From an uncultured Bacteroidota bacterium (lineage in GTDB: Bacteria; Bacteroidota; Bacteroidia; Chitinophagales; Chitinophagaceae): a stretch of DNA of 51,196 bases. Position numbers and translations under genes: made by a program. The first letter of the stretch is position 1; every line of letters starts with the position of its first letter. The DNA lies in the NCBI GenBank assembly GCA_903958045.1, contig CAJBRT010000094.1, positions 1-51,196 on the forward strand, written 5' to 3'. Of the stretch, positions 1,310 through 23,925 are shown in pieces. Below the pieces are notes generated by a model. That model was given only the letters and a program-made list of their open reading frames with translations. It had not been told where the DNA came from and searched no databases.

Positions 1310-2806
1310 TTAAGCTATAATATCATGAATAACTTTGCCACTTAAATCGGTTAGTCTAAAGTTTCGACCCTGTGATTCGTAGGTGAATTTTTCGTGGTCA
1401 AAACCTAACTGATTTAAAATAGTAGCCTGCACATCAAATGTTTCTACTTTGCCACTTACAATATTGTAGCCAATTTCATCTGTTTCGCCATAGGTAGTTC
1501 CACCTTTAATGCCACCGCCTGCCATCCACATCGAAAACGCTTCTCCATGGTGATCACGGCCTTTAAATGGCATGGTTTTACCATCTCTATTTTCTTGCAT
1601 CGGTGTTCTGCCAAATTCAGAACCCCACACAACCAGTGTTTCATCGAGTAAACCTCTTTGTTTTAAATCTTGCAAGAGTGCGGTAATAGGTCTATCAATT
1701 TTTCGACATTTATTTTTTAATCCAATGTCTACGGCGTTGCCCGCAGAGTCGCCGTGTGTATCCCAGCCCCAATCAAATAGTTGTACAAAGCGAACACCTT
1801 TTTCTACCAGCTTACGCGCGAGTAAAACGTTGTTGGCAAAACAAGATTCTCCAGGTTTGGTACCATACATTTCATGAATATATTCCGGCTCGGTGCTAAT
1901 ATCCATAACACCCGGTACAGAAATTTGCATTTTGTACGCAAGTTCATATTGAGAAATACGAGACAAGGTTTCTGGATCTTGATACTCGGTATAAGATTCT
2001 TCATTGACTTTATTAATAGCATCGATACTTGCTTTTCTAATATCGCGGTCCATGCCCGCAGGATCTTTGATAAATAAAACAGGATCGCCTTCGCTGCGGC
2101 ATTGTACACCTTGATACACACTTGGTAAAAATCCACTTCCCCATACACTTTTTCCAGCATCCGGATTATTACCCCCAGAAGTAAGTACTACAAATCCTGG
2201 AAGATTTTTATTTTCGGTACCAAGCCCATAGGTTACCCAAGAACCCATACTAGGCCTGCCTAAACGAGGCGTTCCAGTGTGCATGAGTAATTGCGCAGGT
2301 GCGTGGTTAAACTGATCGGTGGTAACGGCCTGAAGCACGGCCACGTCATCAATAACGGTAGATAAGTGTGGTAGATTTTCTGAAACCCAAGTACCGCTCT
2401 GGCCATACCTATTAAAACTTGCTTGTGGGCCTAGCATTTTAGGAACGCCTCTAATAAACGCAAACTTTTTACCATTGAGTAATGAAGGCGGACAATCTTG
2501 ACCGTCTAATTTAGCAAGCTCCGGTTTGTAGCTAAACATTTCTAGTTGGGAAGGTGCGCCTGCCATGTGTAAATAAATAACGGACTTGGCTTTTCCTAAA
2601 AAAGGAGCTGCTTTTGGCGCTAATGGATTGGTGGCATCAAATACATTATTACTTCCGGTGCTGCAACCGCCTAATAAATTTCCTAGTGCAAGTGCACCTA
2701 AACCCATAGCACTTTCTTTAATAAAATGCCTGCGTGTATGCTGCTGCATCACCACTTTTTGGGCTTCTCTTACTAGGCGCTGGTTATGTAATTCTTTTTG
2801 CGTCAT
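1310..2806 (-). CDS. DUF1501 domain protein (alkaline phosphatase/sulfatase-superfamily-like), Tat signal
   Basis: 498 aa; twin-arginine-type N-terminus TRRHFIKESAMGLGALALGNLLGG; DWGWDTHG, WGSEFGRTP and GRDHHG motifs typical of DUF1501. Confidence 0.93.
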   Translation of the reverse strand: MTQKELHNQRLVREAQKVVMQQHTRRHFIKESAMGLGALALGNLLGGCSTGSNNVFDATNPLAPKAAPFLGKAKSVIYLHMAGAPSQLEMFSYKPELAKLDGQDCPPSLLNGKKFAFIRGVPKMLGPQASFNRYGQSGTWVSENLPHLSTVIDDVAVLQAVTTDQFNHAPAQLLMHTGTPRLGRPSMGSWVTYGLGTENKNLPGFVVLTSGGNNPDAGKSVWGSGFLPSVYQGVQCRSEGDPVLFIKDPAGMDRDIRKASIDAINKVNEESYTEYQDPETLSRISQYELAYKMQISVPGVMDISTEPEYIHEMYGTKPGESCFANNVLLARKLVEKGVRFVQLFDWGWDTHGDSAGNAVDIGLKNKCRKIDRPITALLQDLKQRGLLDETLVVWGSEFGRTPMQENRDGKTMPFKGRDHHGEAFSMWMAGGGIKGGTTYGETDEIGYNIVSGKVETFDVQATILNQLGFDHEKFTYESQGRNFRLTDLSGKVIHDIIA

Positions 2807-2811
2807 GGGAA

Positions 2812-5535
2812 TTAATTTTTATTAAGCCATTCGTCTAAATTAAGCATGGCGTTGGCTACTACTACAAGGGCTGCTCTATTGGTGGGTGATGCAAGTGTGC
2901 TATCGCTCACCAGCACAGTCGCTGCTTTTTTGTTGCTCTGGTATTTTGACAAACTCGACTCATATAAACTAGTGAGTACATTTAATTTAGCAGGAGCAAT
3001 GGGTTTGTACATCATTTGTTCGTAACCCATTTTTATTTTTGCCTCAATCGAACCATTTACTTTGTCCATGCTTTTTGCAAAAGAGCGGGCCATAATAATA
3101 TAAGACGAATCGTTTAATGAGGTAAGCGCTTGAAGTGGCGTGTTGGTTCTAATACGTCTTATTACACACACTTCTCTTGCACCGCCATCAAATGTGAGCA
3201 TTGATGGGTAAGGAGCTGTTCTTTTAAAGTATGTATAAAGTGAACGTCTGTACTGATCTTCACCTTCCGATAATTTCCAAGCATCGCCATTATAGGGTGA
3301 ACGCCAAATACCCTCTGGTTGATACGGCATTACGCTTTTGCCATACATTTTTGGACTTAATAATGTACTTACGGCAAGGGTTTGGTCTCTAATTTGCTCT
3401 GCCGAAAGTCTTACCCTTGGGCCTCTTGCATATAATTTATTATACGGATCTTTTTTAAGGAGTTCTTTGGTAAACATCGATTGCTGTCTATACGTTGCAG
3501 AGAGTAAAATTTCTTTGAGCGTTTTTTTAATACTCCAATTGTGCGTGTGCATGAGTTGCCAAGACAAATAATCAAGCAATGTTTGGTGTGTTGGCGATAA
3601 GCCTTGCGTGCCGAGGTCTTCGAGGGTTTCTACAATGCCCGTTCCAAATAACTGTTCCCAAAGTCTATTAACGAGTGTGCGCGAAACAAGCGGATTGTTT
3701 TTATCTGTTAACCACATCGCAAGGCCGAGTCTATTTTTGGGTGCATTTTTTGGAAGGCTCGGTAATACAGCTGGCACATCAGGTGCAACCAGTTTTCCCT
3801 TAGAAAGCCAACTACCTCTTTCAAAAACATGCGTGGGTCTAAAAAGGTCTTCATTGGCATCCATCATAATAGGTGTTGTTTCTGCACCCGCCATTATTAA
3901 GTCATTAAAATATTTGTAAGCGCTATCGTAACCAGGTTTTTCTTTGGCAGGAAATGGATTGCCAAATGAAAACCATTCAAATAAAATACCATCGTCGGTA
4001 CTGTTTTTTATTTTAGGTGAATAGTACTTGAAATATAAAGTGTGCGTGCCCTTAATGTCTGGAAGGCTAGTGGTCGTGTGTACAAAACCACCGCCAGTGT
4101 TTTTAACAGGCACTTCTTTTACAAGTGGTCCAGTTAAACTATCTAAATAAATGCGCCATACGCCTTTGTCTACCCTTGATGCGTATTTGAACAACAGTTC
4201 CGATTTACCAGTGAGTACTACATTTTTTAAATTACAAGTACCATTATTGCGAAGTGTTGCATACCAACCATTGGCGCCGTTTACAAATTTGTCGCACTGA
4301 AATGCATTGATACTTGGTTGAAGCGTGCGTAAAAAAGTAATCCAATAATTAGCAGCTGCTGGTGCCGCGTTTTGTTGCAACCATTTTTTTACGGATTCAA
4401 ATTTTACATTGTCGATGCCTTGGTATTGACGCAGTACGGGGTTTTCGAAAGGTGAATCTTCATCTCTAGTATTGTTAAAAAACGCCATGAACTTATAATA
4501 CTCGTCATGCTTGAAAGGGTCGTACGGATGGCTATGACACTGCACACAATTAAAACTGGTGCCCATAACGGCGCTCCATGTAGTGTTCACGCGGTCAAGA
4601 ACAGCAGCGGTTCTAAATTCTTCATTGTCGGTACCACCTTCATCGTTGTTCATGGTGTTTCGGTGAAACGCAGTGGCAATATACTGTGCATCAGAAGGGT
4701 TGGGTAATAGATCACCTGCTATTTGCTCCGTTAAAAAATCGTTGTAAGGTTTGTCTGTGTTAAATGCATGGATAAGCCAGTCTCTGTATTTGTAAATGTT
4801 TCTTCCGCGGTCTGCTTCAAAGCCTTTAGTGTCTGCGTATCTGGCAAGGTCTAGCCAAAGTGCTGCCCATTTTTCGCCATAGGCGGGAGTGGCCATTAAA
4901 TCATTGACTAAATTTTCGTAGGCCTTATCTGATGGGTCATTTAAATATTTTGCCGCAATTTTTTTATTAGCAGGAAGACCCGTTATATCTAAACTAACAC
5001 GTCTTAACAGTGTTGCTTTGTCTGCTTCTTTGGAAGGACTTAATTTTTCTGCTTCTAATTTTTCTACAATGTATTTGTCAATATTATTGTTTACCCAATC
5101 GTCATTAATGCTAGGCACTGCTGGCTCTTTTACTTTTTGATACGCCCAGTGTGATCCCCATTTGGCACCTTCTTTAATCCAAGTCGTTAAAATTTTAATT
5201 TCTTCTTTGGTTAACGGATCGTGCTTATACGGCATGCGTTCTTCAGGATCTGTTAAGTGCAACCTTCTGATGAGTTCACTTTCTTCTGGCTTAAATTTTA
5301 TAATGGCAGGCTTGCCAGATTTAGTAGGCGCAAAAGCTTCTTCTTCAAAAAGCAAACTAAATCCTGCTTCTTGTTTTACACCACCATGACAGGTGATACA
5401 TTTTTTATTTAAAATGGGTTTTACTTCGGTGTTATAATCGATAGGATCTGAAGGATAAATTACAACAGCGGTAATGGCAAGCACAATGAGTACTGCAGAA
5501 CTGTAAAAAAGTTTTTTGCTAGGCTTTAAAAACAT
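2812..5535 (-). CDS. DUF1549/DUF1553 (PSCyt1-PSCyt2-PSD1) cytochrome-type protein with internal CBM6-like segment
   Basis: 907 aa; N-terminal TM; NKKCITCHGG heme motif; SLDITGLP (DUF1549); FNCVQCHSHPYDPFKHDEYY; C-terminal NPLVSRTLVNRLWEQLFGTGIVETLEDLG...RRIRTNTPLQALTSLND (DUF1553). Confidence 0.93.
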   Translation of the reverse strand: MFLKPSKKLFYSSAVLIVLAITAVVIYPSDPIDYNTEVKPILNKKCITCHGGVKQEAGFSLLFEEEAFAPTKSGKPAIIKFKPEESELIRRLHLTDPEERMPYKHDPLTKEEIKILTTWIKEGAKWGSHWAYQKVKEPAVPSINDDWVNNNIDKYIVEKLEAEKLSPSKEADKATLLRRVSLDITGLPANKKIAAKYLNDPSDKAYENLVNDLMATPAYGEKWAALWLDLARYADTKGFEADRGRNIYKYRDWLIHAFNTDKPYNDFLTEQIAGDLLPNPSDAQYIATAFHRNTMNNDEGGTDNEEFRTAAVLDRVNTTWSAVMGTSFNCVQCHSHPYDPFKHDEYYKFMAFFNNTRDEDSPFENPVLRQYQGIDNVKFESVKKWLQQNAAPAAANYWITFLRTLQPSINAFQCDKFVNGANGWYATLRNNGTCNLKNVVLTGKSELLFKYASRVDKGVWRIYLDSLTGPLVKEVPVKNTGGGFVHTTTSLPDIKGTHTLYFKYYSPKIKNSTDDGILFEWFSFGNPFPAKEKPGYDSAYKYFNDLIMAGAETTPIMMDANEDLFRPTHVFERGSWLSKGKLVAPDVPAVLPSLPKNAPKNRLGLAMWLTDKNNPLVSRTLVNRLWEQLFGTGIVETLEDLGTQGLSPTHQTLLDYLSWQLMHTHNWSIKKTLKEILLSATYRQQSMFTKELLKKDPYNKLYARGPRVRLSAEQIRDQTLAVSTLLSPKMYGKSVMPYQPEGIWRSPYNGDAWKLSEGEDQYRRSLYTYFKRTAPYPSMLTFDGGAREVCVIRRIRTNTPLQALTSLNDSSYIIMARSFAKSMDKVNGSIEAKIKMGYEQMMYKPIAPAKLNVLTSLYESSLSKYQSNKKAATVLVSDSTLASPTNRAALVVVANAMLNLDEWLNKN

Positions 5536-5601: not shown

Positions 5602-6363
5602 TTATCTACCCATCCAGCCGCCATCAACGGTTAAGATGGTGCCGTTGACATAGTCTGAAGCAGGAGAGGATAAAAAAACGAAAGCTCCGGTTAAATCCTG
5701 AGGAGTTCCCCATCTATTTGCCGGTATTCTGGCCAAAATAGAGGCATTTCTGTCTGGATCGGCCCTTAACTGTGCCGTATTGTCTGTGGATATATATCCT
5801 GGGGCAACACCATTTACGGTAATGCCTTTACTAGCCCATTCGTTGGCAAATGCCTTAATTAAGGAGGCGACAGCTCCCTTACTAGCTGCGTAGCCGGGCA
5901 CGTTGATACCGCCTTGGAAGCTTAAAAGAGAGGCCGTAAACACTATTTTACCAGCGCCATTGGCAATCATTTGTTTCCCAATTTCTCGGGTGATAATAAA
6001 TTGCGCATTTAAATTGATGTCAATGATATTGTCCCAAAATTCGTCAGAATGTTCGGCGGCAGGACTTCTTTGAATACTTCCCGCATTGTTAATCAGGATA
6101 TCAATGGTTGGATGGTTTTTGATTACCGCATCTAAAAAAGCATAGATCGAATCTCTATTGGAAAAATCGGCTTGGTAGGCATAAAACTTTTTACCTGCTG
6201 CAAGCACTGCTTTTTCTACATCGCTTCCTGATGCAGGCATAGAGCCACTTACACCAATAATATCGGCACCGCTGTTAGCGAGTTCGATGGCAATGGCCAT
6301 GCCAATACCTTTACTACAACCGGTTACTAAAGCAACTTTATTGTCTACTCTAAAATTTAGCAT
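5602..6363 (-). CDS. kduD: 2-dehydro-3-deoxy-D-gluconate 5-dehydrogenase (SDR family)
   Basis: 253 aa; TGCSKGIG Rossmann motif, YAASKGA active site, KduD-like C-terminus GYISTDNTAQLRADPDR..ILARIPANRWGTPQDLTGAFVFLSSPASDYVNGTILTVDGGWMGR; adjacent to kduI. Confidence 0.92.
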   Translation of the reverse strand: MLNFRVDNKVALVTGCSKGIGMAIAIELANSGADIIGVSGSMPASGSDVEKAVLAAGKKFYAYQADFSNRDSIYAFLDAVIKNHPTIDILINNAGSIQRSPAAEHSDEFWDNIIDINLNAQFIITREIGKQMIANGAGKIVFTASLLSFQGGINVPGYAASKGAVASLIKAFANEWASKGITVNGVAPGYISTDNTAQLRADPDRNASILARIPANRWGTPQDLTGAFVFLSSPASDYVNGTILTVDGGWMGR

Positions 6364-6368
6364 AGGAA

Positions 6369-7202
6369 TTATTTTAATAACTGAATGTTTACAAAATCCA
6401 TATCAGCAAACGACATGTTTTCGCCAGCCATTGCCCAAATAAAGGAGTAAGAAGCCGTTGCTACACCACTATGTATACTCCATGATGGAGACACAATACC
6501 CTGCTCATTATTTAAGAATAGGTGTCTTGTTTCGTGCGGCTCACCCATGAAATGAATGACACGTTGTGTTTCAGGTAAATCAAAATAGAAGTAGGCTTCC
6601 ATACGACGGTCGTGCAGGTGCGCTGGCATGGTATTCCAAATGCTGCCTGGTTTAAAATTGGTTACACCTAGTACAAGTTGACAACTTTTTAAGCCATCTG
6701 CGTGAATGTATTTGTTAATGGTTCTGTGATTCGCCGTTTCTGCACTTCCCATTTCGGCAGGCGTTGCATCTTTACTTTGCATAAGCTGCGTAGGATGGCT
6801 CGCGTGCGCTGGGCAAGAGAATAAAATAAATTTAGAAGGGTTACTAGGGTCGGTGCTGGCATGAAAAGTAACTTCTTTGTTACCCATACCAATATACAAG
6901 CAATCAATTTTATCTAGGGTGTAAATTTGACCCTCTACTGTTACGCTTCCGGTGGCGCCAATATTTACGATGCCAATTTCTCTTCTATCTAAAAAGTTTT
7001 CAGACTTTAAAGCGTCGTAGGTGCCTAGCTGAATAGCAGCGGTAGTAGGGGTTGCAGCGCCTACCATCATTCTGTCATAATGGGTGTACACAAAATTGAT
7101 AGCGCCCGGCTCTACTAAATTGTCTAGTAAAAACTTAGCTCTAATTTGCTCGGTTGTATATTTTACAAAATCTTCGGGATGTACTTGGTGAATAATTTTC
7201 AT
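6369..7202 (-). CDS. kduI: 5-dehydro-4-deoxy-D-glucuronate isomerase
   Basis: 277 aa; KduI motifs incl. MPAHLHDRRMEAYFYFDLPETQRVIHFMGEPHETRHLFLNNEQGIVSPSWSIHSGVATASYSFIWAMAGEN. Confidence 0.95.
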   Translation of the reverse strand: MKIIHQVHPEDFVKYTTEQIRAKFLLDNLVEPGAINFVYTHYDRMMVGAATPTTAAIQLGTYDALKSENFLDRREIGIVNIGATGSVTVEGQIYTLDKIDCLYIGMGNKEVTFHASTDPSNPSKFILFSCPAHASHPTQLMQSKDATPAEMGSAETANHRTINKYIHADGLKSCQLVLGVTNFKPGSIWNTMPAHLHDRRMEAYFYFDLPETQRVIHFMGEPHETRHLFLNNEQGIVSPSWSIHSGVATASYSFIWAMAGENMSFADMDFVNIQLLK

Positions 7203-12279: not shown

Positions 12280-12367
12280 ATGCCCCTTACACCCTTGATT
12301 TAATGGGAACGATTACTTTACGTAAATTAATGTAGTAATTTCCATGTTATTAAACTCAATCTTTGTT

Positions 12368-12796
12368 ATGAAAAAAGCCGGGCTTCTAATTTTAATACTA
12401 ACTTTTTCTTTGGGTGGCTTTACTCAATCTAAAAAAGACGTAGAAGTGATTTCTGCCGTTGAGAAATTGCGTCTAGCTATGATTAGTGGCATAAAAGAAG
12501 ATTTAGAATCAATAGTACATGATAGCCTTAGCTATGGGCATAGTAATGGAACTATAGAAGGCAAGTATGAATTTGTTGAAAAAATCGTTTCAGGTAAATC
12601 GGATTTTGTATCTATTGAATTGAATAGCCAAACGATATCTGTGCAAAAAGATATTGCAATAGTTAGACATAACTTAGTTGCAAATATTAACGATGGAGGT
12701 AAGCCTGCAGAAGTAAAACTAAAAATCTTATTGGTTTTTACAAAAACCGGGAAAGATTGGAAATTATTAGCGCGCCAAGCTGTGAAACTCGTATAA
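12368..12796 (+). CDS. DUF4440 / NTF2-like family protein, secreted
   Basis: Signal peptide MKKAGLLILILTFSLGGFTQS; LRLAMISGIKEDLESIVHDSLSYGHSNGTIEGKYEFVEKI...RHNLVANINDGGKPAEVKLKILLVFTKTGKDWKLLARQAVKL. ORF opens at 12344; the internal ATG gives a better signal peptide. Confidence 0.85.
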   Translation: MKKAGLLILILTFSLGGFTQSKKDVEVISAVEKLRLAMISGIKEDLESIVHDSLSYGHSNGTIEGKYEFVEKIVSGKSDFVSIELNSQTISVQKDIAIVRHNLVANINDGGKPAEVKLKILLVFTKTGKDWKLLARQAVKLV

Positions 12797-12854: not shown

Positions 12855-14549
12855 ATGAAGTATTTATTTTATTTATTTGTGTTAATCGCAAACATGCAAT
12901 TTGCAATTGCGCAAAGTAAATCGTTGGCAGCGGAGGCGGCAGCAACTGCGATGACTACTTTATGGAAAGAGTCATTTAGCGTAGATGCTGGAAAGCCAGT
13001 CAAGTGGACTTATAATCAGAGCCTAGTATTGCATGGTATCGAACGCTTGTGGATACAAACTGCCAATCCTGAATATTTTTCTTTCCTCCAAAAGAGTATG
13101 GAATTATACAAAGCGCAGGATTACAATAGGGATAATGTTTTATTTGGAAGAATTTTATTGACACTTTATAATGTAACGGGTCAAGTACAATATTACAAGG
13201 CTGCTTCATTATTAAGAGATCAATTAAAAGGTCAGATGCTTGCAAAAGAAGGAAAGCTTTATATGGTGCAGCCATTTTATGCTGCCTATGCAAAACAGTT
13301 TCATGAGCCTGAGGCTTTTGATGAAATCGCCAATCAATTTATTTGGATGGAAAAGCATGCAAGAGATGCTAAATCTGGTATAGCAGGTTCTTATGAAATG
13401 GCACTAGTTGACGTTTTGGAAAACTTTCCTGCCATGCATCCAAAACGGGATACGCTTATAGCTATTTTAAAAAGGGTGGCAGATGCTATAAATAAAGCGC
13501 AAAACCCATTAACTGGCTTATGGTATGATGCTTTAAACATGCCTGAACAAAATGAAAATGATTTAGAGTGTAACGCAAGTGCGATGTTTGTTTGTGCTAT
13601 TGCAAAAGCAGTGCGTTTAGGTTTACTACCTACACGCTATTTAGTAGTTTCTACAAAAGGATATAACGGCATTGTAAAACAGTACATTAAAAAAGAAGGA
13701 AAGGGAAGTGCTAATCTAAAAGAGTCCTTAATCGCAGATTCGAAAGGTATAGGTGCATTTATACAAGCTGCCAATGAAATGGAGTGGCATGCAACACTAA
13801 AACTTGGTAAGAAACAGGTTTTTTTGTTAGACGACTATTACAATGCCGAAAAGAAAAAAGACATTAAAGGAGTTGAATATGCCTATCATTATAAGTGGCC
13901 TGAAATGTACAATAATGGTTTTTCATTTTTAGGAAATGTAATCACCTCTAATGGATTGCAAACTAAAACATTGTCTGAAGCACCTACTGTGAGCAATTTA
14001 AAAGATGCTTCTATCTACATGATTGTTGATCCAGACAATATAACAGACAATCCTACTCCAAATTACATGAACGATAAGGACGCCCAAGAAATTTATAATT
14101 GGGTAAAAGCAGGAGGCGTACTCGTTTTATTTCACAATGATAAACCGAATGCTGATTTTACTGCCTTCAATAAATTGTCTGATTTATTTGGCATTCACTT
14201 TAATGAGGATACGTATAATCGAGTGGTTGGAAAAGATTATGAGGGCGGTAAAATTGATGTGCCTACTAAGCACCAAATCTTGAAAAATGTGCAAACTATT
14301 TATCAAAAAGAAGTTTGTTCCATAACTGCTAAGGCGCCTGCTAAATCAGTACTAACAAAAGGAGATTTGGTTGTTTTCGCAACCGCTAAAATTGGTAAGG
14401 GTACTGTTTTTGCAACGGGTGATCCTTGGCTTTACAACGAATATACCGATGGTCGAATGCTTCCAGCGATGTATCAAAATGCCGAGGCAGCAAAAGATTT
14501 AGTAAAATGGTTGATAGCACAAATTCCAGTTAAAAAAATAACGGATTAA
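12855..14549 (+). CDS. GH88/GH105-family (unsaturated rhamnogalacturonyl hydrolase-like) protein with C-terminal DUF4350/GATase-like domain; catalytic loops apparently missing
   Basis: 564 aa; GH105 scaffold WTYNQSLVLHGIERLW, NVLFGRILLTLYNVTGQVQYYKAASLLRDQL, LYMVQPFYAAYAKQF, MALVDVLENFPAMHPKRDTLIAIL, ASAMFVCAIAKAVRLG; C-terminal region with VKAGGVLVLFHNDK and GKGTVFATGDPWLYNEYTDGR. Confidence 0.85.
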   Translation: MKYLFYLFVLIANMQFAIAQSKSLAAEAAATAMTTLWKESFSVDAGKPVKWTYNQSLVLHGIERLWIQTANPEYFSFLQKSMELYKAQDYNRDNVLFGRILLTLYNVTGQVQYYKAASLLRDQLKGQMLAKEGKLYMVQPFYAAYAKQFHEPEAFDEIANQFIWMEKHARDAKSGIAGSYEMALVDVLENFPAMHPKRDTLIAILKRVADAINKAQNPLTGLWYDALNMPEQNENDLECNASAMFVCAIAKAVRLGLLPTRYLVVSTKGYNGIVKQYIKKEGKGSANLKESLIADSKGIGAFIQAANEMEWHATLKLGKKQVFLLDDYYNAEKKKDIKGVEYAYHYKWPEMYNNGFSFLGNVITSNGLQTKTLSEAPTVSNLKDASIYMIVDPDNITDNPTPNYMNDKDAQEIYNWVKAGGVLVLFHNDKPNADFTAFNKLSDLFGIHFNEDTYNRVVGKDYEGGKIDVPTKHQILKNVQTIYQKEVCSITAKAPAKSVLTKGDLVVFATAKIGKGTVFATGDPWLYNEYTDGRMLPAMYQNAEAAKDLVKWLIAQIPVKKITD

Positions 14550-14589: not shown

Positions 14590-16035
14590 ATGATGTTGAA
14601 TAAAAAAACATACGCGGCTATAACTACTGATAATGTAGATGCACTATTTGCACTACCAGAAAAAGTATTGCAGTTTGGAACTGGCGTGTTGCTTCGCGGC
14701 TTGCCTGATTATTTTATTGATAAGGCGAATAAACAAGGTTTGTTTAATGGTAGAATTGTAGTTGTAAAATCGACAGACCAAGGTGGTACAGATGCTTATG
14801 GCGTGCAGGATGGTTTGTATACCATACTTGAAAAAGGCATTGAAAATGGATCAGTTGTAGAACGTGCTACCATTAATGCTTCAATTAGCAGAGTGATATC
14901 TGCAAAATCAAAGTGGGATGAAGTTTTAAAATGTGCTTCTAATAAGAATATTAAAGTAATTATTTCAAATACCACCGAGGTTGGCATTACACTTGTTCCT
15001 TCGGATGCATCATCATTTTTCCCCGAATCGTTTCCGGGTAAACTACTACATTTTTTGATGGAACGTTACCGAGTTTTTGGCGGTTCGGAAGATGCTGGCC
15101 TGGTTATCATTCCAACCGAACTCATTAGTGATAATGGGAGCAAACTAAAAGAAGTTGTTTTAGAACTAGCGAGGTTAAAAGGGCTTGATGCTTCTTTTGT
15201 GGCGTGGATCAATAACGCCAATGATTGGTGTAGTTCATTGGTTGATTGTATTGTTCCGGGTAAATTACCTGACACAGAAAAGAGCGCTTTTGAATCAAAA
15301 GCCGGTTACACAGATGATCTCGCCATTATGTCTGAACCTTACAGGCTGTGGGCAATTGAAACGGCAAGTGAAAAAACGGCAGCCATACTATCTTTTGCAG
15401 GTGCTGATGCCCGAGTTATTTTAGCGCCTAGCATTAATAAGTACAAAGAAATTAAATTAAGACTTTTAAACGCCACACACTCTTTGTGTTGCGGGATAGC
15501 ATATTTGAGTGGTTTTGTGACTGTTAAAGACGCTTTAAAAGACAATATATTTAGGTCTTTTATTCTGGCAATGTTGCTAGAAGAAATTGTTCCACTCGTA
15601 GCTGATGGCGATATTTCTTTGGAAGAGGCGAACGCTTTTGCACTTCAAGTTATTGACCGTTTTTCCAATCAGAGCATTGAGCACTTATGGCTAAATATTT
15701 CGGTGCAATACACGTCTAAAATGAAAATGCGCGTAGTGCCTTTGGTAGAAAAATATGTAAAACAAAATGGGAGGGCACCTAAACTAATGTCATTTGGTTT
15801 TGCTGCTTATCTAGTATTTATGAAATCTAAAGAAGTCGCTCCTCAAAAGTATATGGGTACTTATGCAGGCGTCGGTTATGAAATCAAAGACGACAAAGCT
15901 GCAGAAATGTCTACTGCTTGGACTTCAAAAAATACATTTGTAGCATCGAGCGTTTTTAATGAACAGGTATTTAAATATGTAGATGTCATTGAAGCTAGTT
16001 CCGTAAAAGACGTTTTGGGGTCACTGGCTAAATAA
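14590..16035 (+). CDS. uxaB: tagaturonate reductase / altronate oxidoreductase-like (mannitol dehydrogenase family)
   Basis: 481 aa; VLQFGTGVLLRGLPDYFID, VKSTDQGG..YGVQDGLYTILEKG, IISNTTEVGI, VIIPTELISDNG, KEIKLRLLNATHSL; flanked by uxaC. Confidence 0.85.
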   Translation: MMLNKKTYAAITTDNVDALFALPEKVLQFGTGVLLRGLPDYFIDKANKQGLFNGRIVVVKSTDQGGTDAYGVQDGLYTILEKGIENGSVVERATINASISRVISAKSKWDEVLKCASNKNIKVIISNTTEVGITLVPSDASSFFPESFPGKLLHFLMERYRVFGGSEDAGLVIIPTELISDNGSKLKEVVLELARLKGLDASFVAWINNANDWCSSLVDCIVPGKLPDTEKSAFESKAGYTDDLAIMSEPYRLWAIETASEKTAAILSFAGADARVILAPSINKYKEIKLRLLNATHSLCCGIAYLSGFVTVKDALKDNIFRSFILAMLLEEIVPLVADGDISLEEANAFALQVIDRFSNQSIEHLWLNISVQYTSKMKMRVVPLVEKYVKQNGRAPKLMSFGFAAYLVFMKSKEVAPQKYMGTYAGVGYEIKDDKAAEMSTAWTSKNTFVASSVFNEQVFKYVDVIEASSVKDVLGSLAK

Positions 16036-16047
16036 AAATTTGAAGAG

Positions 16048-17460
16048 ATGAGTAAGTTATTTATGGGTGAAGATTTTTTGTTGCAAACGAAAACAGCGCA
16101 GTTACTGTATGAGGAGTATGCAAAGCAAATGCCAATTATCGATTACCATTGTCATTTGTCGCCACAACAAATTGCCGAAGATATTAAGTTCGAAAATTTA
16201 ACCCAGGGTTGGTTATATGGCGATCATTATAAGTGGAGAGCCATGCGTACGAATGGTGTCGATGAATCTTATTGCACGGGCAATAAGTCTGATTATGAAA
16301 AATTTGAGAAGTGGGCTGCTACCGTGCCTTATACCATGCGTAACCCACTATACCACTGGACACATTTAGAATTAAAAAGATATTTTGGTATTGGAGAGAT
16401 ACTAGATTCTTCAACTGCAAAAGCGGTGTATGATAATGCCAGTGCGCAAATTCAAACGGATGCTTTTAGTATCAAAAATTTAATTCGAAAAATGAATGTA
16501 AAAGTCATTTGTACCACAGATGACCCAATCGATTCATTGGAATATCATAAAACGCTTGCTGAGAGTGATTTTGAAGTAAAAATAAAGCCTGCGTTTAGAC
16601 CTGATAAGGCCATGGAAGTTTCAAGTGCGGCTAATTTTATAGCGTACATCAAAAAATTAGAAGCCGTTACCAATCTGACAGTTTCTTCATTTGAAGATTA
16701 TTTATTTGCACTTCAAAATAGACATGACTTTTTTGCATCTATGGGATGTTCTGTAAGTGATCATGGATTAGAAGAAATTTATATAGAAGATTTTACAGGA
16801 CAAGAAATTGAAGCCATTTTCACAAAAGTACATGGAGGAAAAGAATTAAGTCTTATTGAGCAGCGCAAATTCAAAAGCTGCATGTTACTTCACTTTGCAG
16901 AATGGGATTGGGAAAAAGGCTGGGTGCAACAATATCACTTAGGTGCGCTCCGCAATAATAACTCGCGCATGCTATCTAAATTAGGCCCAGACACTGGATG
17001 GGATAGTATTGGAGATTTTTCGCAAGCAGCAGCGCTTTCTAAATTTTTAAATAAACTAGATAGTGAAGATAAATTGGCTAAAACCATTATCTACAATCTG
17101 AATCCTGCAGACAATGAACTCATGGCATCCATGATTGGTAATTTTAATGATGGATCGGTAGCTGGTAAAATTCAGTTTGGTAGTGGCTGGTGGTTTTTAG
17201 ATCAAAAAGATGGCATCATTAAACAGTTAAATGCCCTTAGTAATATGGGTCTAGTGAGCAGGTTTGTAGGTATGCTCACCGATTCTCGAAGTTTTTTATC
17301 TTTTCCAAGACACGAATATTTTAGACGCATCTTGTGTAATTTGTTTGGCGACGAAATTGAAAATGGTGAATTGCCTAACGATACAAAATGGGTAGGTCAA
17401 ATCATTCAGGATATCTGTTACAACAATGCCAATACCTATTTTGGCTGGAATAACAAATAA
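16048..17460 (+). CDS. uxaC: glucuronate (uronate) isomerase
   Basis: 470 aa; IIDYHCHLSPQQIAEDIKFENLTQGWLYGDHYKWRAMRTNGV, CTTDDPIDSLEYH, LLHFAEWDWEKGWVQQYHLGALRNNNSRM. Confidence 0.96.
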   Translation: MSKLFMGEDFLLQTKTAQLLYEEYAKQMPIIDYHCHLSPQQIAEDIKFENLTQGWLYGDHYKWRAMRTNGVDESYCTGNKSDYEKFEKWAATVPYTMRNPLYHWTHLELKRYFGIGEILDSSTAKAVYDNASAQIQTDAFSIKNLIRKMNVKVICTTDDPIDSLEYHKTLAESDFEVKIKPAFRPDKAMEVSSAANFIAYIKKLEAVTNLTVSSFEDYLFALQNRHDFFASMGCSVSDHGLEEIYIEDFTGQEIEAIFTKVHGGKELSLIEQRKFKSCMLLHFAEWDWEKGWVQQYHLGALRNNNSRMLSKLGPDTGWDSIGDFSQAAALSKFLNKLDSEDKLAKTIIYNLNPADNELMASMIGNFNDGSVAGKIQFGSGWWFLDQKDGIIKQLNALSNMGLVSRFVGMLTDSRSFLSFPRHEYFRRILCNLFGDEIENGELPNDTKWVGQIIQDICYNNANTYFGWNNK

Positions 17461-17517: not shown

Positions 17518-18528
17518 ATGAAAAAAGTATTTTGTTTTGGGGAAATTTTACTTCGAATGTCACCCGTATTAGATCAGGGCTGGATTAACAGTGCTTCTAT
17601 GCCGGTGCATTTAGGTGGCGCAGAACTCAATGTAGCAAAGGCTTTGGCTGGATGGCAGCAACCGGTTACGTATATGTCTGCAATGCCAGACAATTATTTA
17701 TCTAAAGAAATTGCAGCGTCAATTGCTGCTAGTCATATTGGCGTAGAAGCCATGCAATATTGTGGCGACCGTATAGGCATTTACTTTTTACCACAAGGGG
17801 CCGATTTAAAAAATGCCGGTGTTATTTACGACCGTGCACATGCTTCATTTTCAACAGCTTTATTCCCGGGAAAAATAAATTGGGATGCTTTACTGGAAGG
17901 TTCTGATTGGTTTCATTTTAGTGCCATTAGTCCGGCTTTAACAGCGCAGGCTGCCGAACTTTGTTTGGATGCATTAAAAGCTGCAAAGCGATTAGGGCTT
18001 ACCATTTCTGTAGATTTAAATTACCGCGCTAAACTTTGGAAATATGGCAAGCAACCTGCCCAGGTAATGCCAGAACTTGTTGCTTACGCCGATGTAATTA
18101 TGGGTAATATTTGGAGCGCTAAAGATCTTCTGGGTATTCATGTTCCAGCTGGTGCAGAAAGCGCTACTAGTAAAGAAGCGTTCGCTGCATGTGCTAAGGA
18201 AACGGCTGCTGTACTATTTGCGCAAAACGCGTCCTGTAAAGTGGTAGCCAATACCTTTAGGTTTACACCAGAAGGATTGGGCGTGCATTATTATGCGGCA
18301 CTTGATACAAGAGAGGAGCAGGCGGTATCAGTAAGTTTTGATGCAAATTCAGTAATCGATAAAGTAGGTAGTGGCGACTGTTTTATGGCAGGGCTTATAT
18401 ACGGCATTCATAATGGACATGCGTATCAGGAAACGATAAATTATGCAGCTTCGGCAGCTTTTGGTAAATTGCAAGAACTAGGAGATAGCACCAAACAAAC
18501 CATCAGTCAAATTAAATCAAGGTATTAA
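17518..18528 (+). CDS. kdgK: 2-dehydro-3-deoxygluconokinase (PfkB family)
   Basis: 336 aa; CFGEILLRMSP, LGGAELNVAKAL, SVDLNYRAKLW, DKVGSGDCFMAGLIYG. Confidence 0.93.
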   Translation: MKKVFCFGEILLRMSPVLDQGWINSASMPVHLGGAELNVAKALAGWQQPVTYMSAMPDNYLSKEIAASIAASHIGVEAMQYCGDRIGIYFLPQGADLKNAGVIYDRAHASFSTALFPGKINWDALLEGSDWFHFSAISPALTAQAAELCLDALKAAKRLGLTISVDLNYRAKLWKYGKQPAQVMPELVAYADVIMGNIWSAKDLLGIHVPAGAESATSKEAFAACAKETAAVLFAQNASCKVVANTFRFTPEGLGVHYYAALDTREEQAVSVSFDANSVIDKVGSGDCFMAGLIYGIHNGHAYQETINYAASAAFGKLQELGDSTKQTISQIKSRY

Positions 18529-19185
18529 ATGGAAAGAGAAGCCGCATTAATCAATCAAATTAAAAATGAAGGCATGTTGCCTTTGTTTTATCATGATGAC
18601 GTTACCGTTTGTGAAAATGTGCTTCAAGCACTATACAATGGGGGTGTTAGATGTGTCGAGTTTACCAATAGAGGCGTACATGCACTTCCAAATTTTAAGC
18701 ATTTGGTTTCCTTAAAAACTACGATGCCTGGTTTGATACTTGGCATTGGTACCATTAAAACACCGCAAGACGCTACTTCGTTTATTGAAGCCGGTGCAGA
18801 TTTTTTAGTTAGCCCCTGTTTTGATGCTAGTGTTGCAGACGTTGCATACATGCACAAAGTACTATGGATACCAGGTTGTATGACGCCCACCGAAATTCAT
18901 GTGGCGCAAAAATCTGGTGCTACACTCATAAAATTATTTCCGGGTAACGTATTAGGTCCTGGCTTTGTGGAAGCTATTAAATCTTTATTTACAGGTGTAG
19001 ATTTTTTAGTGACCGGTGGCGTAGAACCAACCGAGCAAAATATTGGAGCTTGGTTTAAAGCAGGCGTAGTAGGCGTTGGGCTTGGAAGTAAACTAATTAC
19101 CAAAGATGTTTTGGCGAATAAAAATTATAAGCAATTAGAAATTCAAACAAAAGAACTTGTACAGCTCATCAAAAAAGTACAATAG
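18529..19185 (+). CDS. eda: KDPG / 4-hydroxy-2-oxoglutarate aldolase
   Basis: 218 aa; VEFTNRG, LGIGTIKTPQDATSFIEAGADFLVSPCF, WIPGCMTPTEIHVAQKSGATLIKLFPGN, VTGGVEPT. The ATG immediately follows the kdgK stop. Confidence 0.94.
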   Translation: MEREAALINQIKNEGMLPLFYHDDVTVCENVLQALYNGGVRCVEFTNRGVHALPNFKHLVSLKTTMPGLILGIGTIKTPQDATSFIEAGADFLVSPCFDASVADVAYMHKVLWIPGCMTPTEIHVAQKSGATLIKLFPGNVLGPGFVEAIKSLFTGVDFLVTGGVEPTEQNIGAWFKAGVVGVGLGSKLITKDVLANKNYKQLEIQTKELVQLIKKVQ

Positions 19186-19207: not shown

Positions 19208-20521
19208 ATGGAACAAAATATTGGACGTTACCGCTGGACTATTTGTAGTTTAGTTTTTTTTGCAACTACTATTAACTATTTAGATAGAGCAGTCATTAGC
19301 TTATTGAAATCTACGCTTACTACCGAATTAAAATGGGATGATGGTGATTATACCAATGTCGAAATCGCTTTTAAAGTATCTTATGCCATAGGATTACTAT
19401 TAGCAGGACGATTTATTGATACAGTGGGTACTAAAAAAGGATATGCATGGGCAACCGGACTTTGGAGTGTGGCTGCTGTTTTACATGCGGCTGCTAAAAG
19501 TGTATTTGGATTTTCTGTGGCACGTGCCGCATTAGGTGTTACTGAGGCAGGAAATTTTCCGGCTGCTATTAAAACTGTGGCGGAATGGTTTCCACGCAAA
19601 GAACGTGCATTAGCTACTGGGCTTTTTAATTCTGGTGCAAATATTGGCGCCATTGTTGCACCTTTAACGGTTCCATTTATTGCTGCTGCATATGGTTGGC
19701 AGTGGGCATTTGTTGCAACAGGTTTACTTGGATTTATTTGGCTTATTTTTTGGAATAAGCATTATTATAAACCATCGGAGCACCCTAAGTTATCTGCGGC
19801 AGAGCTTGCTTATATTAATAGTGATACTGATGCTATTCCGGAAGGGGATGCACTTCAAACTAAATCATTTGGTTGGGCGTCTTTATTAAAGTACAAACAA
19901 ACATGGGCTTTTGCTATAGGTAAATTATTAACCGATCCCATTTGGTGGTTTTATCTTTTCTGGTTACCGGATTTTTTAGAAAGTCAATACCATATTAAAG
20001 GAACGGCTATTGCACTTCCAGTTGCTGCTGTTTATACGATGTCTGCGGTAGGAAGTGTTTTTGGCGGATGGCTCCCTATGTATTTTATTAAAAAGAATTG
20101 GCCAGTATTTAAAGCGCGCAAGTCTTCTATGTTATTATATGCCTTTTTAGTATTGCCTATTTTATTTGCACAAGTACTAGGTGGTATGAACATGTGGTTG
20201 GCCGTTTTTGTAATTGGTATTGCAGCTGCTGCGCATCAGGCATGGAGTGCAAATATATTTACGACGGTAAGTGATATGTTCCCTAAACGTGCAGTAGGCT
20301 CTGTAACGGGTATTGGTGGTATGTTTGGAGCGATTGGTGGTATTTTACTATCTATGGCGGTACAAAAGAATTTGTTTGTGCATTACCGTGCTATAAATCA
20401 AATTGAAACGGCTTATTATATTATGTTTATTGTATGCGGCTCTGCATACTTGTTAGCTTGGCTAATCATGCATATACTCGTGCCTAAAGTAAACGTAATT
20501 GCTGCCGAAGATTTAGAATAA
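19208..20521 (+). CDS. exuT: MFS transporter, hexuronate (ExuT-like)
   Basis: 437 aa; [76 protein letters not shown], typical of anion:cation symporter (ACS) hexuronate members. Confidence 0.88.
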
Positions 20522-20529
20522 TAATTGAT

Positions 20530-21711
20530 ATGCAAGAGCAACCCAAAATGATACAAACCATGCGCTGGTATGGTCCTAACGATCCGGTTAGTTTATGGGA
20601 TATACGTCAAGCTGGTTGTACAGGTGTAGTTTCTGCACTCCATCAAATACCAAATGGAGAAGTATGGCCCATTGAAGCTATCATGGAGCGTATTCAAATC
20701 ATTGAAGCCGCTGGATTAAGTTGGGATGTTGTTGAAAGTGTGCCGGTGCATGAAGCGATTAAAACGCAAACAGCTGGGTTTGAAAAATACATTGCTCACT
20801 ATAAGCAAACTATACAAAATTTAAGTAGCTGCGGCATTAAAATTGTGACCTATAATTTTATGCCTGTGATGGATTGGACGCGTACCAATTTAAAGCACGA
20901 AATGCCGGATAAATCTTTGGCGCTACTCTATGAAAAGGCAGCCGTTGCCGCATTTGATGTATATATTTTAGAAAGAAAAAATGCAGATAGTGATTATACG
21001 GCTATTGAATTGGAGCAAGCAAAACAGCGTTTTAATCAAATGACGGACGCTCAAAAATTAGAACTCCAGCACAATATGATTAAGGGGCTTCCGGGTAGTG
21101 AAGAAAGTTTTACGATGGAAGCTTTTAGGAATGCACTTGCTGCCTTTGATCATATTGATGCTAAAAAATTAAGAGCACATCTCATTTATTTTTTAGATCA
21201 AATTATTCCAATAGCTGAGTCATGTGGCGTTAAAATGGTGATTCACCCAGACGATCCGCCGTATTCTATTTTGGGCTTACCAAGGGTGGTTAGTACCGCT
21301 GCAGACGTTCAGGCTTTATTTGATGCGGTGCCTTCTATGTCTAATGGGCTTTGTTTTTGCACGGGATCATTTGGTGTAAGGCCCGATAATAATTTGCCTG
21401 GCATGGTTAGTAATTTTGGTGAACGCATTAATTTTATTCATTTGCGTAGTACCAAACGAAATGACAAAGGTGATTTTTTTGAAGACAATCATTTAGAAGG
21501 CGACGTAGATATGTATAGGGTGGTCAAAGAAATTATTGAAGTGATGCGTAAGCGAAACGTTTCAATTCCTATGAGACCCGATCATGGACATCAAATGCTG
21601 GATGATTTGAAAAAAACAACCAACCCAGGTTATTCTGCTATTGGAAGATTACGTGGCCTTGCAGAGTTAAGAGGGTTAGAACTAGGGATTATTAAGAGTT
21701 TGTATTATTGA
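20530..21711 (+). CDS. uxuA: mannonate dehydratase
   Basis: 393 aa; [96 protein letters not shown]. Confidence 0.96.
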
Positions 21712-23919
21712 TAATCCTTTTTGCGCGGTATATTTTCCTGTAACGATTTTTTTGTTTTGTATATGGATTTTAAAATCCAGGTTCCAATTTTTGGGCCAGG
21801 CCGCTAGCCATTGTGTTTGGTCTATTTCAGATTGCACAAGCATGTTTTGAAGTGCACGCATATTAACGGTTCCATGGTCCTGATCCGGTACCCAGTCATA
21901 ATTGGGTCCCCAAAATGCAGGGAACCGGCTACCACTATGTTTTGTGGTAAAATTATGAACCACCATTTTTTTAGCCTCATCTGTTAAGCCTAAATAAGCT
22001 GCAAAAATGGGGTCTTGCTGCCAGCCGCTAAAATCATTATTGGCTTTATGATTCCAAGCTGTAATCGCTTCTTCTATTTTTGGCTTACCAACCCCTCTTA
22101 CGCGGTAAGGGAAAACGGCGTATAGTTCTGGTTTTTCTACATTGGTGCGGGGGCCCAGGTTATAACCAGCTGCAAGTGCCGTTTGCCCTTTGATGGTTTG
22201 CGTTGGTAAAGGTGGCAATTGCGCATATAATGCTTGAGCTTTATTTACAAAGCCAGGGTCATCAATAATATTTTTATAAGCGGTTATTTTTTCAATTACT
22301 GTTGAGAGTCCTGCGATTTCTGGAAGTGGATTAATAACGCCTTCAAAATAAGACTCTAATGCTTGTGCAGGTTGAATGCTAATATGGTTTGTACTGTCTT
22401 TTTTATAATGTGCGTTATAAAAAAGTATGGTTTCTTTTATAAATGGAAGGTGTTCTTTTACAAAAGTGGTTTTATCATTTGTAAACTCATAGTAATCAAT
22501 CATGAGTTTAGATAATTCCAAACTACCCTCCCATAAATAACGGATGTACATATTTTCAGAAACGCCGTCTGCTAATTTTTTTCTATCCCAGCCGTAATTG
22601 TCATTGGTGTATGTGCCCCAGGGCGTCATGGTTTCCGGAAAGTAAGCGCCTTCGTGTTTAAAATATTTTCGTGTTCTATATTTTGCTAGTGGCAGCGCAT
22701 CGGTATACATTTTAAAGAGTGGCTTTATGAGCGCAAAGTCGCCACTGTATAGCATCGAATAATAGGGGAGTCTTGTATTTTGAAACCAATAATTAGCACC
22801 CCAGTCTCTAAAGTCTGCGTCATAACCTGTTAGGTTTCTTTTGCCCATACTTTCATCAACGTCTACTGTAAAAATGGATCCATTAAATTTAATAGGAAGA
22901 CCTCCTCTTCCGGCGCAAGCATTCATATACCGCTGGAGTTGATACCCTTGTGTGATGGCAAAAGTTTCATTTTTTGTTTGTAGGCTAGTATCTCCAGGCG
23001 TAACAATCATGTAATGGGCATTCCAAAATTTCGCCCACCAATTTTTATGCGCATTGAATCTTTGGGTTGCAGTCCTGTCACTCGTTTTTTTATGAAGCGC
23101 TAGGGTAGCTTGTTTCCATTCTAAAATATTAGCTGTTTGCTTTTTAAGAACGGTAATATTTATTTCAAATTCATTATTTGATTTGCTACTAACCATTTCA
23201 TTGGCACTAACAACGGCCCCAAAGTTTTGGTATAAGAGCGGATCTTTGCCAATTTCATTAAACTTTGAGAGGTTTTGGTTGTCTAAGGTAGACTGCCAAA
23301 TGGATGATTTATTTTGGTGAACCCAAATAAGCTTATTGCCGTTTTCAAGGACCGTATCTCTTTCTCTTAATAGCGGAAAAGGCGCACCCATCATGCCGTA
23401 AGCGCTTCTTTTTTCTCCCCCTTGCAAAGTGTCTAATTTATTACGCCACATTAAATTTTTAATGGTTAAAGCAACCTTAGTGCTTGCTTTTCCGGTTATG
23501 GTAATGGCCGGGTTGTTGGCGTCTGCAAAAATGGAAAGAGATAAGCTTTGATTTTTTGTATTGGTGGCTTTAATAATAATGCTGCCGGTTTGTATATCGA
23601 GTGTTTGGGAAAATATAGCGCCATCAAGTATAGAAGGGCTTGTGCTAATGGATATTTTTCCAATTTTTAAAAGACGGCCAATTTCGGAATAGGCGTCTGT
23701 TTTTGAAATATATAATTGTAATTGTCCGCTGCTATCTACCCATACGTTGGCTCCAATATCGCCATTGCCAATGGGCATGGATCCAGATGGTCCACTACTT
23801 TGTGAAGCCCACGCTACGTTGTATGGCGCAAGTGAAACTTGCGCCATACAAGGCCTAAAAAAAACCCCCAGCACCGCAAAAGCTGCGGACAATCCCCTAA
23901 CTAAATTTTCTTTTCGCAT
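21682..23919 (-). CDS. DUF5703-domain glycoside-hydrolase-like secreted protein (six-hairpin/GH95-like)
   Basis: ~745 aa; signal peptide; [62 protein letters not shown] (DUF5703-like); [43 protein letters not shown]. The ORF track start 23925 is a TTG codon; ATG at 23919. Confidence 0.8.
23819..23851. repeat. 15-bp perfect inverted repeat (3-nt loop) inside the DUF5703 coding sequence
   Basis: TTGTATGGCGCAAGT (23819-23833) - GAA - ACTTGCGCCATACAA (23837-23851). Confidence 0.9.
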
Positions 23920-23925
23920 ACCCAA

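Follow-up and report, generated by a model that had tools for sequence, protein, structure and literature searches.

The window, meaning the whole 51,196-nucleotide stretch of DNA analyzed, encodes a 564-residue protein in a reading frame (12855..14549) with no internal stops. The gene sits between a DUF4440 gene and a run of uronate-catabolic genes, in a 2.43 Mb genome recovered as a fragmented 220-contig assembly. The features of the locus, each with its basis, are as follows.

5602..7202, minus strand: KduD-like SDR and KduI, which act on the product of unsaturated uronides (Pfam)
12344..12796, plus strand: DUF4440 (SnoaL/NTF2-like) gene, likely start at 12368, directly upstream of the hollowed gene (Pfam)
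12855..14549, plus strand: candidate GH105-derived pseudoenzyme fused to a DUF4350/GIFT-like domain, 564 aa (ORF, Pfam, alignments, AF2 model)
12855..12914, plus strand: probable Sec signal peptide (MKYLFYLFVLIANMQFAIAQ; by-eye reading of the sequence)
12921..13796, plus strand: remnant (alpha/alpha)6 barrel, residues ~23-314, with 12 of 12 helices kept in the predicted structure (model helices, YteR and C. acetobutylicum GH105 matches, Foldseek)
13101..13106, plus strand: junction 1, in the helix 3-4 loop, 10 codons missing at E83/L84 (codon alignment with L114, L116, and L115)
13251..13256, plus strand: junction 2, 15 codons missing at G133/K134, corresponding to YteR His132, Lys133, Trp141, and the catalytic Asp143 (codon alignment)
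13380..13385, plus strand: junction 3, 28 codons missing at I176/A177, corresponding to His189, Trp211, and Arg213 (codon alignment)
13725..13730, plus strand: junction 4, 24 codons missing at S291/L292, corresponding to the gate loop and YRDGSYAYY (codon alignment; L152 likewise lacks 24)
13803..14537, plus strand: conserved DUF4350/GIFT-like C-terminal domain, residues ~317-561 (sub-threshold PF14258, Foldseek, invariant residues, dN/dS)
14590..16035, plus strand: UxaB-type tagaturonate reductase (NCBIfam)
16048..17460, plus strand: UxaC uronate isomerase (Pfam)
17518..18528, plus strand: PfkB kinase, KdgK-like (Pfam, NCBIfam)
18529..19185, plus strand: KDPG aldolase (Pfam)
19208..20521, plus strand: MFS transporter, hexuronate/galactonate-like (NCBIfam and a further profile search)
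20530..21711, plus strand: UxuA mannonate dehydratase (NCBIfam)

Also on the minus strand are a DUF1501 and PSCyt1/PSCyt2/PSD1 gene pair (1310-5535), a type named for Planctomycetes that is found here in a Chitinophagaceae genome, and a DUF5703_N protein with a weak GH95 catalytic-domain match (21682-23925).

The original prediction assigned the protein to GH105, proposed a DUF4350/GATase-like C-terminal domain, and placed the gene beside uronate-catabolic neighbors, and all three assignments are supported. The Glyco_hydro_88 profile (PF07470) matches in two pieces with 134 bits against a cut-off of 26.6, and a phmmer search of the PDB likewise matched YteR and the GH105 enzyme of C. acetobutylicum as two blocks, the segments between them being absent from the window protein. 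The match to DUF4350 (PF14258) has 24.7 bits, below the cut-off of 30.4, while an orthologue, L149, scores 40.3. The fold of the C-terminal domain resembles that of the IFT52 N-terminal (GIFT) domain (5FMS; Foldseek, TMt 0.74), and all of the invariant DUF4350 residues are present (D326, N330, E332, H345, Y346, D392, D394, N428, D429, and K485). Compared with the GIFT/GATase-like domains of IFT52 and PF14258, this domain is bacterial, apparently secreted, and fused to a glycosidase-type barrel. Stand-alone DUF4350 genes occur, so the domain does not depend on a fused barrel for its existence. One of them (L162:7278-8156) belongs to a pectin locus, where it lies directly 3' of an intact GH105-DUF4350 gene, and other copies are near TonB-dependent receptors or methionine synthase; no consistent clue to function came from the genes around the stand-alone copies.

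Full-length orthologues were gathered from genome contigs and whole-genome searches. Intact fusions with the same two-domain order occur in Bacteroidota and Acidobacteriota (e.g., L114, L116, L009, and L044) and are direct orthologues of the window protein, but they keep all active-site loops and are usually encoded beside GH28. Identity to the intact sister L114 is 73% in the barrel and 89% in the DUF4350 domain. Relative to L114, the window gene lacks exactly 10, 15, 28, and 24 codons at four sites, all in frame and with conserved flanks. In-frame excision of the catalytic and substrate loops was thereby borne out: the three gaps that had been called are real and the missing segments had been correctly named as FWHKKIYPNQMWLD, LYHGWDES...FWGRAM(GW), and VSVSGLGGKPYRDGSYAYYMSEK, but the fourth gap, of 10 aa at residues 83/84, had been overlooked. 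This last deletion removed YFVSDNGDIK ahead of the Asp88 equivalent and is found only in the window; the close relative L152 retains the segment. At junction 2, the boundaries are identical in L152 and in the independent L208, and at junction 3, L152 lacks 31 residues. Neither a second GH105 gene nor the missing segments were found elsewhere in the window's own genome.

Active residues of GH105 enzymes are, in YteR numbering, Tyr41, Asp88, His132, Lys133, Trp141, Asp143, Met147, His189, Trp211, and Trp217, with a gate loop at 331-335 (PMC4528949); Arg213 was added to this list by alignment to CA_C0359 Arg200. Alignment to YteR, which had been recommended as a check, showed that the window protein keeps the equivalents of Tyr41 (Y53), Asp88 (D93), and Met147 (M137). 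The others are missing: Asp143 of the QMWLDG loop was lost at junction 2 together with His132, Lys133, and Trp141, the substrate loop with His189, Trp211, and Arg213 was lost at junction 3, where S179 occupies the Trp217 position, and the gate loop was lost at junction 4. Catalytic-residue columns are invariant or >90% conserved in alignments of relatives. No variation is seen across 54 orthologues (alignment A2) in the catalytic-loop His-Lys, Trp, and Asp, in the His of the loop that follows, or in the Trp-x-Arg...Trp and YRDGS blocks. A hydrolase that remains active with migrated catalytic residues could account for the three retained residues and for the KduI and KduD genes encoded nearby. 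We consider this highly improbable: the protein has lost the general acid/base Asp143 along with Lys133, His189, three Trp, and the gate loop, the loops have no replacement sequence, and there is no upstream lyase or GH28 partner. As judged from alignments, the window protein is a GH105 homologue but, by the catalytic features examined, does not qualify as an active member of the family, as the candidate pseudoenzyme label had anticipated.

Predicted structures were compared for the window protein (AF2, pLDDT 88.9, pTM 0.89) and the intact sister (pLDDT 91.7, pTM 0.90), each built with alignments of locus proteins as input. This check had also been proposed, and the models indicate that the barrel fold is retained while the loops of one face are gone. 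Taken in order, each of the 12 barrel helices of the intact model can be paired with a helix of the window model. Even-to-odd loops of the intact protein are predicted to be short (2-7 residues) and odd-to-even loops long (about 17-42 residues). The long loops would form one face of the barrel, and they hold all four window deletions and an additional 22-residue deletion in L152. Top Foldseek matches of the window model are still GH105 structures, although the match to 4wu0 is reduced (TMt 0.70 vs 0.97 for the intact sister).

A search for orthologues with the same deletions found the catalytic-Asp loop missing in eight genomes, the window's included; the other seven are G156 (L007/L152), G184 (L151), G192 (L153), G594 (L209), G061 (L149), G097 (L150), and G576 (L208). 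None of the eight genomes has a frameshift in the hollowed gene. Losses were counted on trees built from the DUF4350 domain alone. A careful tree with six truncated sequences, made before L208 and L209 were added, required four changes, all forced by supported branches, and a quicker tree that included both required five. These trees indicate that the catalytic-Asp loop has been lost at least five times independently. The window protein and L152 group as sisters (98/83) within a set of intact Sediminibacterium proteins. L152 comes from an independent assembly, a Sediminibacterium MAG; it has lost the same 15 codons, with the same boundaries, and its losses at junctions 3 and 4 overlap those of the window. 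After these common losses, each of the two lost one further loop, of 10 aa in the window and 22 aa in L152. In another clade, three genomes have a common, further truncated form (L151, L153, and L209), and the Tyr41 and Asp88 equivalents are also missing in L151 and L149. L208 (5221-7155) independently lost the same 15 codons and 11 residues of the next loop but retained the gate loop, and may represent an early or intermediate stage of hollowing. Since L208 lost the catalytic-Asp loop and kept most others, this loop may be the first to go. An assembly or sequencing artefact, which the fragmented 220-contig assembly might suggest, has a negligible probability. The window has four separate in-frame deletions at helix boundaries, and the artefact is rejected because seven other genomes lost the same loop.

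Several other irregular sequences were encountered in the family. L206 (534 aa) and L146, L148, and L183 were rejected as truncated forms; they either retain the catalytic motifs or are interrupted by the end of a contig or a break in the frame. In L206:4833-10016 (G740), the GH105 N-terminus and UxaA seem to be split into several frames, which may be a sequencing error. L211:3367-6726 (G182) codes for a GH28-GH105-DUF4350 triple fusion, so that the pectin-cutting partner and the GH105 protein form a single chain. Similar open frames of ~1120 aa occur in G239, G241, G173, G163, G218, G196, G190, G194, and G604, and several Sediminibacterium genomes are among the carriers of such a long open frame of the GH105-DUF4350 family.

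Selection on the two parts of the protein was estimated as dN/dS (NG86). In pairs in which both members are already truncated, barrel values are 0.22 (window-L152) and 0.15-0.16 (L151 vs L209/L153), compared to 0.05-0.09 in intact pairs, and dN/dS of the remnant barrel is thus about threefold higher. Values for DUF4350 are 0.06-0.09 in truncated pairs and 0.04-0.07 in intact pairs. Over the columns shared by all sequences, the ratio of barrel to DUF4350 substitutions is 103:41 in the truncated lineage vs 41:40 in the intact sister (Fisher P value 0.002). The barrel is therefore under relaxed but real purifying selection, and DUF4350 is unaffected. Both parts are under purifying selection and the frame is intact in all eight genomes, so the gene is not an ordinary pseudogene, as had been argued from the kept reading frame and conserved flanks. 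A slower form of reductive decay was also considered, in which a roleless barrel in streamlined genomes accumulates in-frame deletions, which are the survivors because frameshifts would destroy the downstream domain, and is eventually lost. Relaxed constraint on the barrel, the small genome (2.43 Mb), and lineage-specific trimming on top of overlapping losses (22 aa in L152 and 10 aa in the window) all fit this explanation. We nonetheless regard it as improbable, given that dN/dS remains well below 1 after truncation, that all helices persist and deletions are limited to one barrel face in the models, and that one truncated form is conserved in three genomes.

The original prediction suggested that the protein could be a binding or regulatory protein. 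In its strongest form, the emptied barrel would itself act in binding or regulation as a pseudoenzyme, having gained affinity for a ligand or partner, such as a uronate or the DUF4440 protein, and would have been kept for that reason. Barrel dN/dS of about 0.15 after truncation indicates purifying selection, the models retain all helices, and DUF4440 is directly upstream in seven of eight hollowed loci (four of five independent events). With dN/dS still well under 1 in the truncated pairs, this explanation stays viable. Sugar-binding residues were, however, lost along with the catalytic ones, L151 and L149 lack even the Tyr41 and Asp88 equivalents, and identity to the window protein is down to 26% in the L151 barrel but still 63% in its DUF4350 domain. 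Adjacency to DUF4440 may only reflect excision of GH28, since DUF4440 is an ancestral neighbor. The suggestion as originally worded did not stand: the pocket residues are gone and constraint on the barrel is relaxed, whereas DUF4350 is constrained as in intact enzymes. We consider a role for the barrel as a binding module unlikely.

Gene content around the hollowed proteins differs from that of intact relatives. The locus in close intact relatives consists of SusD, DUF4440, LacI, GDSL-GH28, GH105-DUF4350, CE8-PL10, UxaB, UxaA, and UxaC. In the window and L152, it consists of DUF4440, the hollowed GH105-DUF4350, UxaB, UxaC, KdgK, KDPG aldolase, an MFS transporter, and UxuA, and the depolymerases are gone. 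L208, an independent loss, has a nearly identical stripped operon. Among 70 loci with enough upstream sequence (8 hollowed, 62 intact), an upstream GH28 is present in 0 of 8 hollowed and 53 of 62 intact loci (Fisher P value 2.6e-6, shared ancestry ignored), with nine intact loci likewise lacking one. When counted as independent pairs, five of five agree (sign test P value 0.0625, the minimum possible for the five events on which it rests). Seven of 8 hollowed loci, but none of the 62 intact ones, have DUF4440 as the immediate upstream gene; in intact relatives it is 3.5-3.9 kb upstream. The DUF4440 gene of the window codes for an NTF2-like, secreted-type protein, a conserved member of pectin loci that stays beside the hollowed protein. 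Genome-wide, no GH28 was found in the window's genome (G000), G156, G184, or G097; G061 has one elsewhere in its genome, and G192 has an intact paralogue beside a GH28. PL10 is present in none of six hollowed genomes tested and in all five close intact genomes. The pectate lyase PL1 is absent from all 11 genomes tested and hence uninformative. Loss of the galacturonate branch along with UxaA was considered and rejected; the window's genome has a copy of UxaA on a different contig, and the ability to use galacturonate has therefore probably been kept. It appears that the lineage gave up pectin digestion and turned to scavenging free uronates.

From alignments, models, and gene neighborhoods, the window protein very probably has no catalytic activity left and is maintained for a different function. 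The explanation we favor, and consider probable, is a GH105 domain that no longer catalyzes, fused to a DUF4350/GIFT-like domain on which selection still acts, with the barrel as a minimal scaffold. The ancestor would have been a normal two-domain enzyme in a pectin utilization locus (DUF4440, GH28, GH105-DUF4350, CE8-PL10, UxaB, UxaA, and UxaC). The GH28 and PL10 depolymerases would then have been lost in the window's lineage, perhaps ahead of the loops, and because of this loss no unsaturated rhamnogalacturonide would have been left to hydrolyze. With the DUF4350 domain and its DUF4440 partner still needed, loss or frameshift of the gene would not have been tolerated, and selection would have allowed only in-frame trimming of loops on the active-site face. 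Such trimming between barrel helices would leave a minimal 12-helix scaffold adjoining a working C-terminal domain. The protein would no longer hydrolyze its former substrate, and the barrel would persist chiefly to let the protein fold around DUF4350, although persistent purifying selection on the barrel may count against a bare passenger. DUF4350, perhaps with DUF4440, would have its own role in uronate handling in the periplasm, where, at a guess, the two bind or handle uronates. A more ambitious version has GH105-DUF4350 hollowed repeatedly, loop by loop and catalytic-Asp loop first, upon abandonment of pectin depolymerization, the minimal barrel and DUF4440 becoming a new noncatalytic periplasmic module for uronate scavenging or sensing; this is conceivable but doubtful.

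Most known secreted glycosidase pseudoenzymes lost single catalytic residues by substitution. Heparanase-2 (PMC12406646), a secreted example, has a hydrolase fold without the catalytic apparatus, as does the window protein, but here whole loops of the active-site face were excised, and repeatedly. Pseudoenzymes are a well-known class, defined as homologues without conserved catalytic motifs (review PMC10211241), and alignments place the window protein within this definition. It shares the homologous 12-helix (alpha/alpha)6 barrel of the unsaturated rhamnogalacturonyl hydrolases YteR (1NC5/2GH4) and the C. acetobutylicum enzyme (4WU0), including the Tyr41, Asp88, and Met147 equivalents, and differs from both in the lost active-site residues and gate loop listed above and in its C-terminal DUF4350 domain. 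Among the papers searched, there was no precedent for GH105/GH88 pseudoenzymes and no report linking DUF4350 with GH105. Pseudoenzymes as such are already known; what appears to be new, on sequence evidence, is a recurrent, loop-excised GH105 pseudoenzyme. The family would provide at least five independent, staged cases of an enzyme domain emptied of its active site with the fold kept and close intact sisters available for comparison. It makes testable how much of a barrel can be cut away before folding fails, and the role of the uncharacterized DUF4350 and DUF4440 partners of pectin loci, which evolution would now have separated from catalysis. It also carries a warning that a GH88/GH105 annotation does not here imply pectin degradation.
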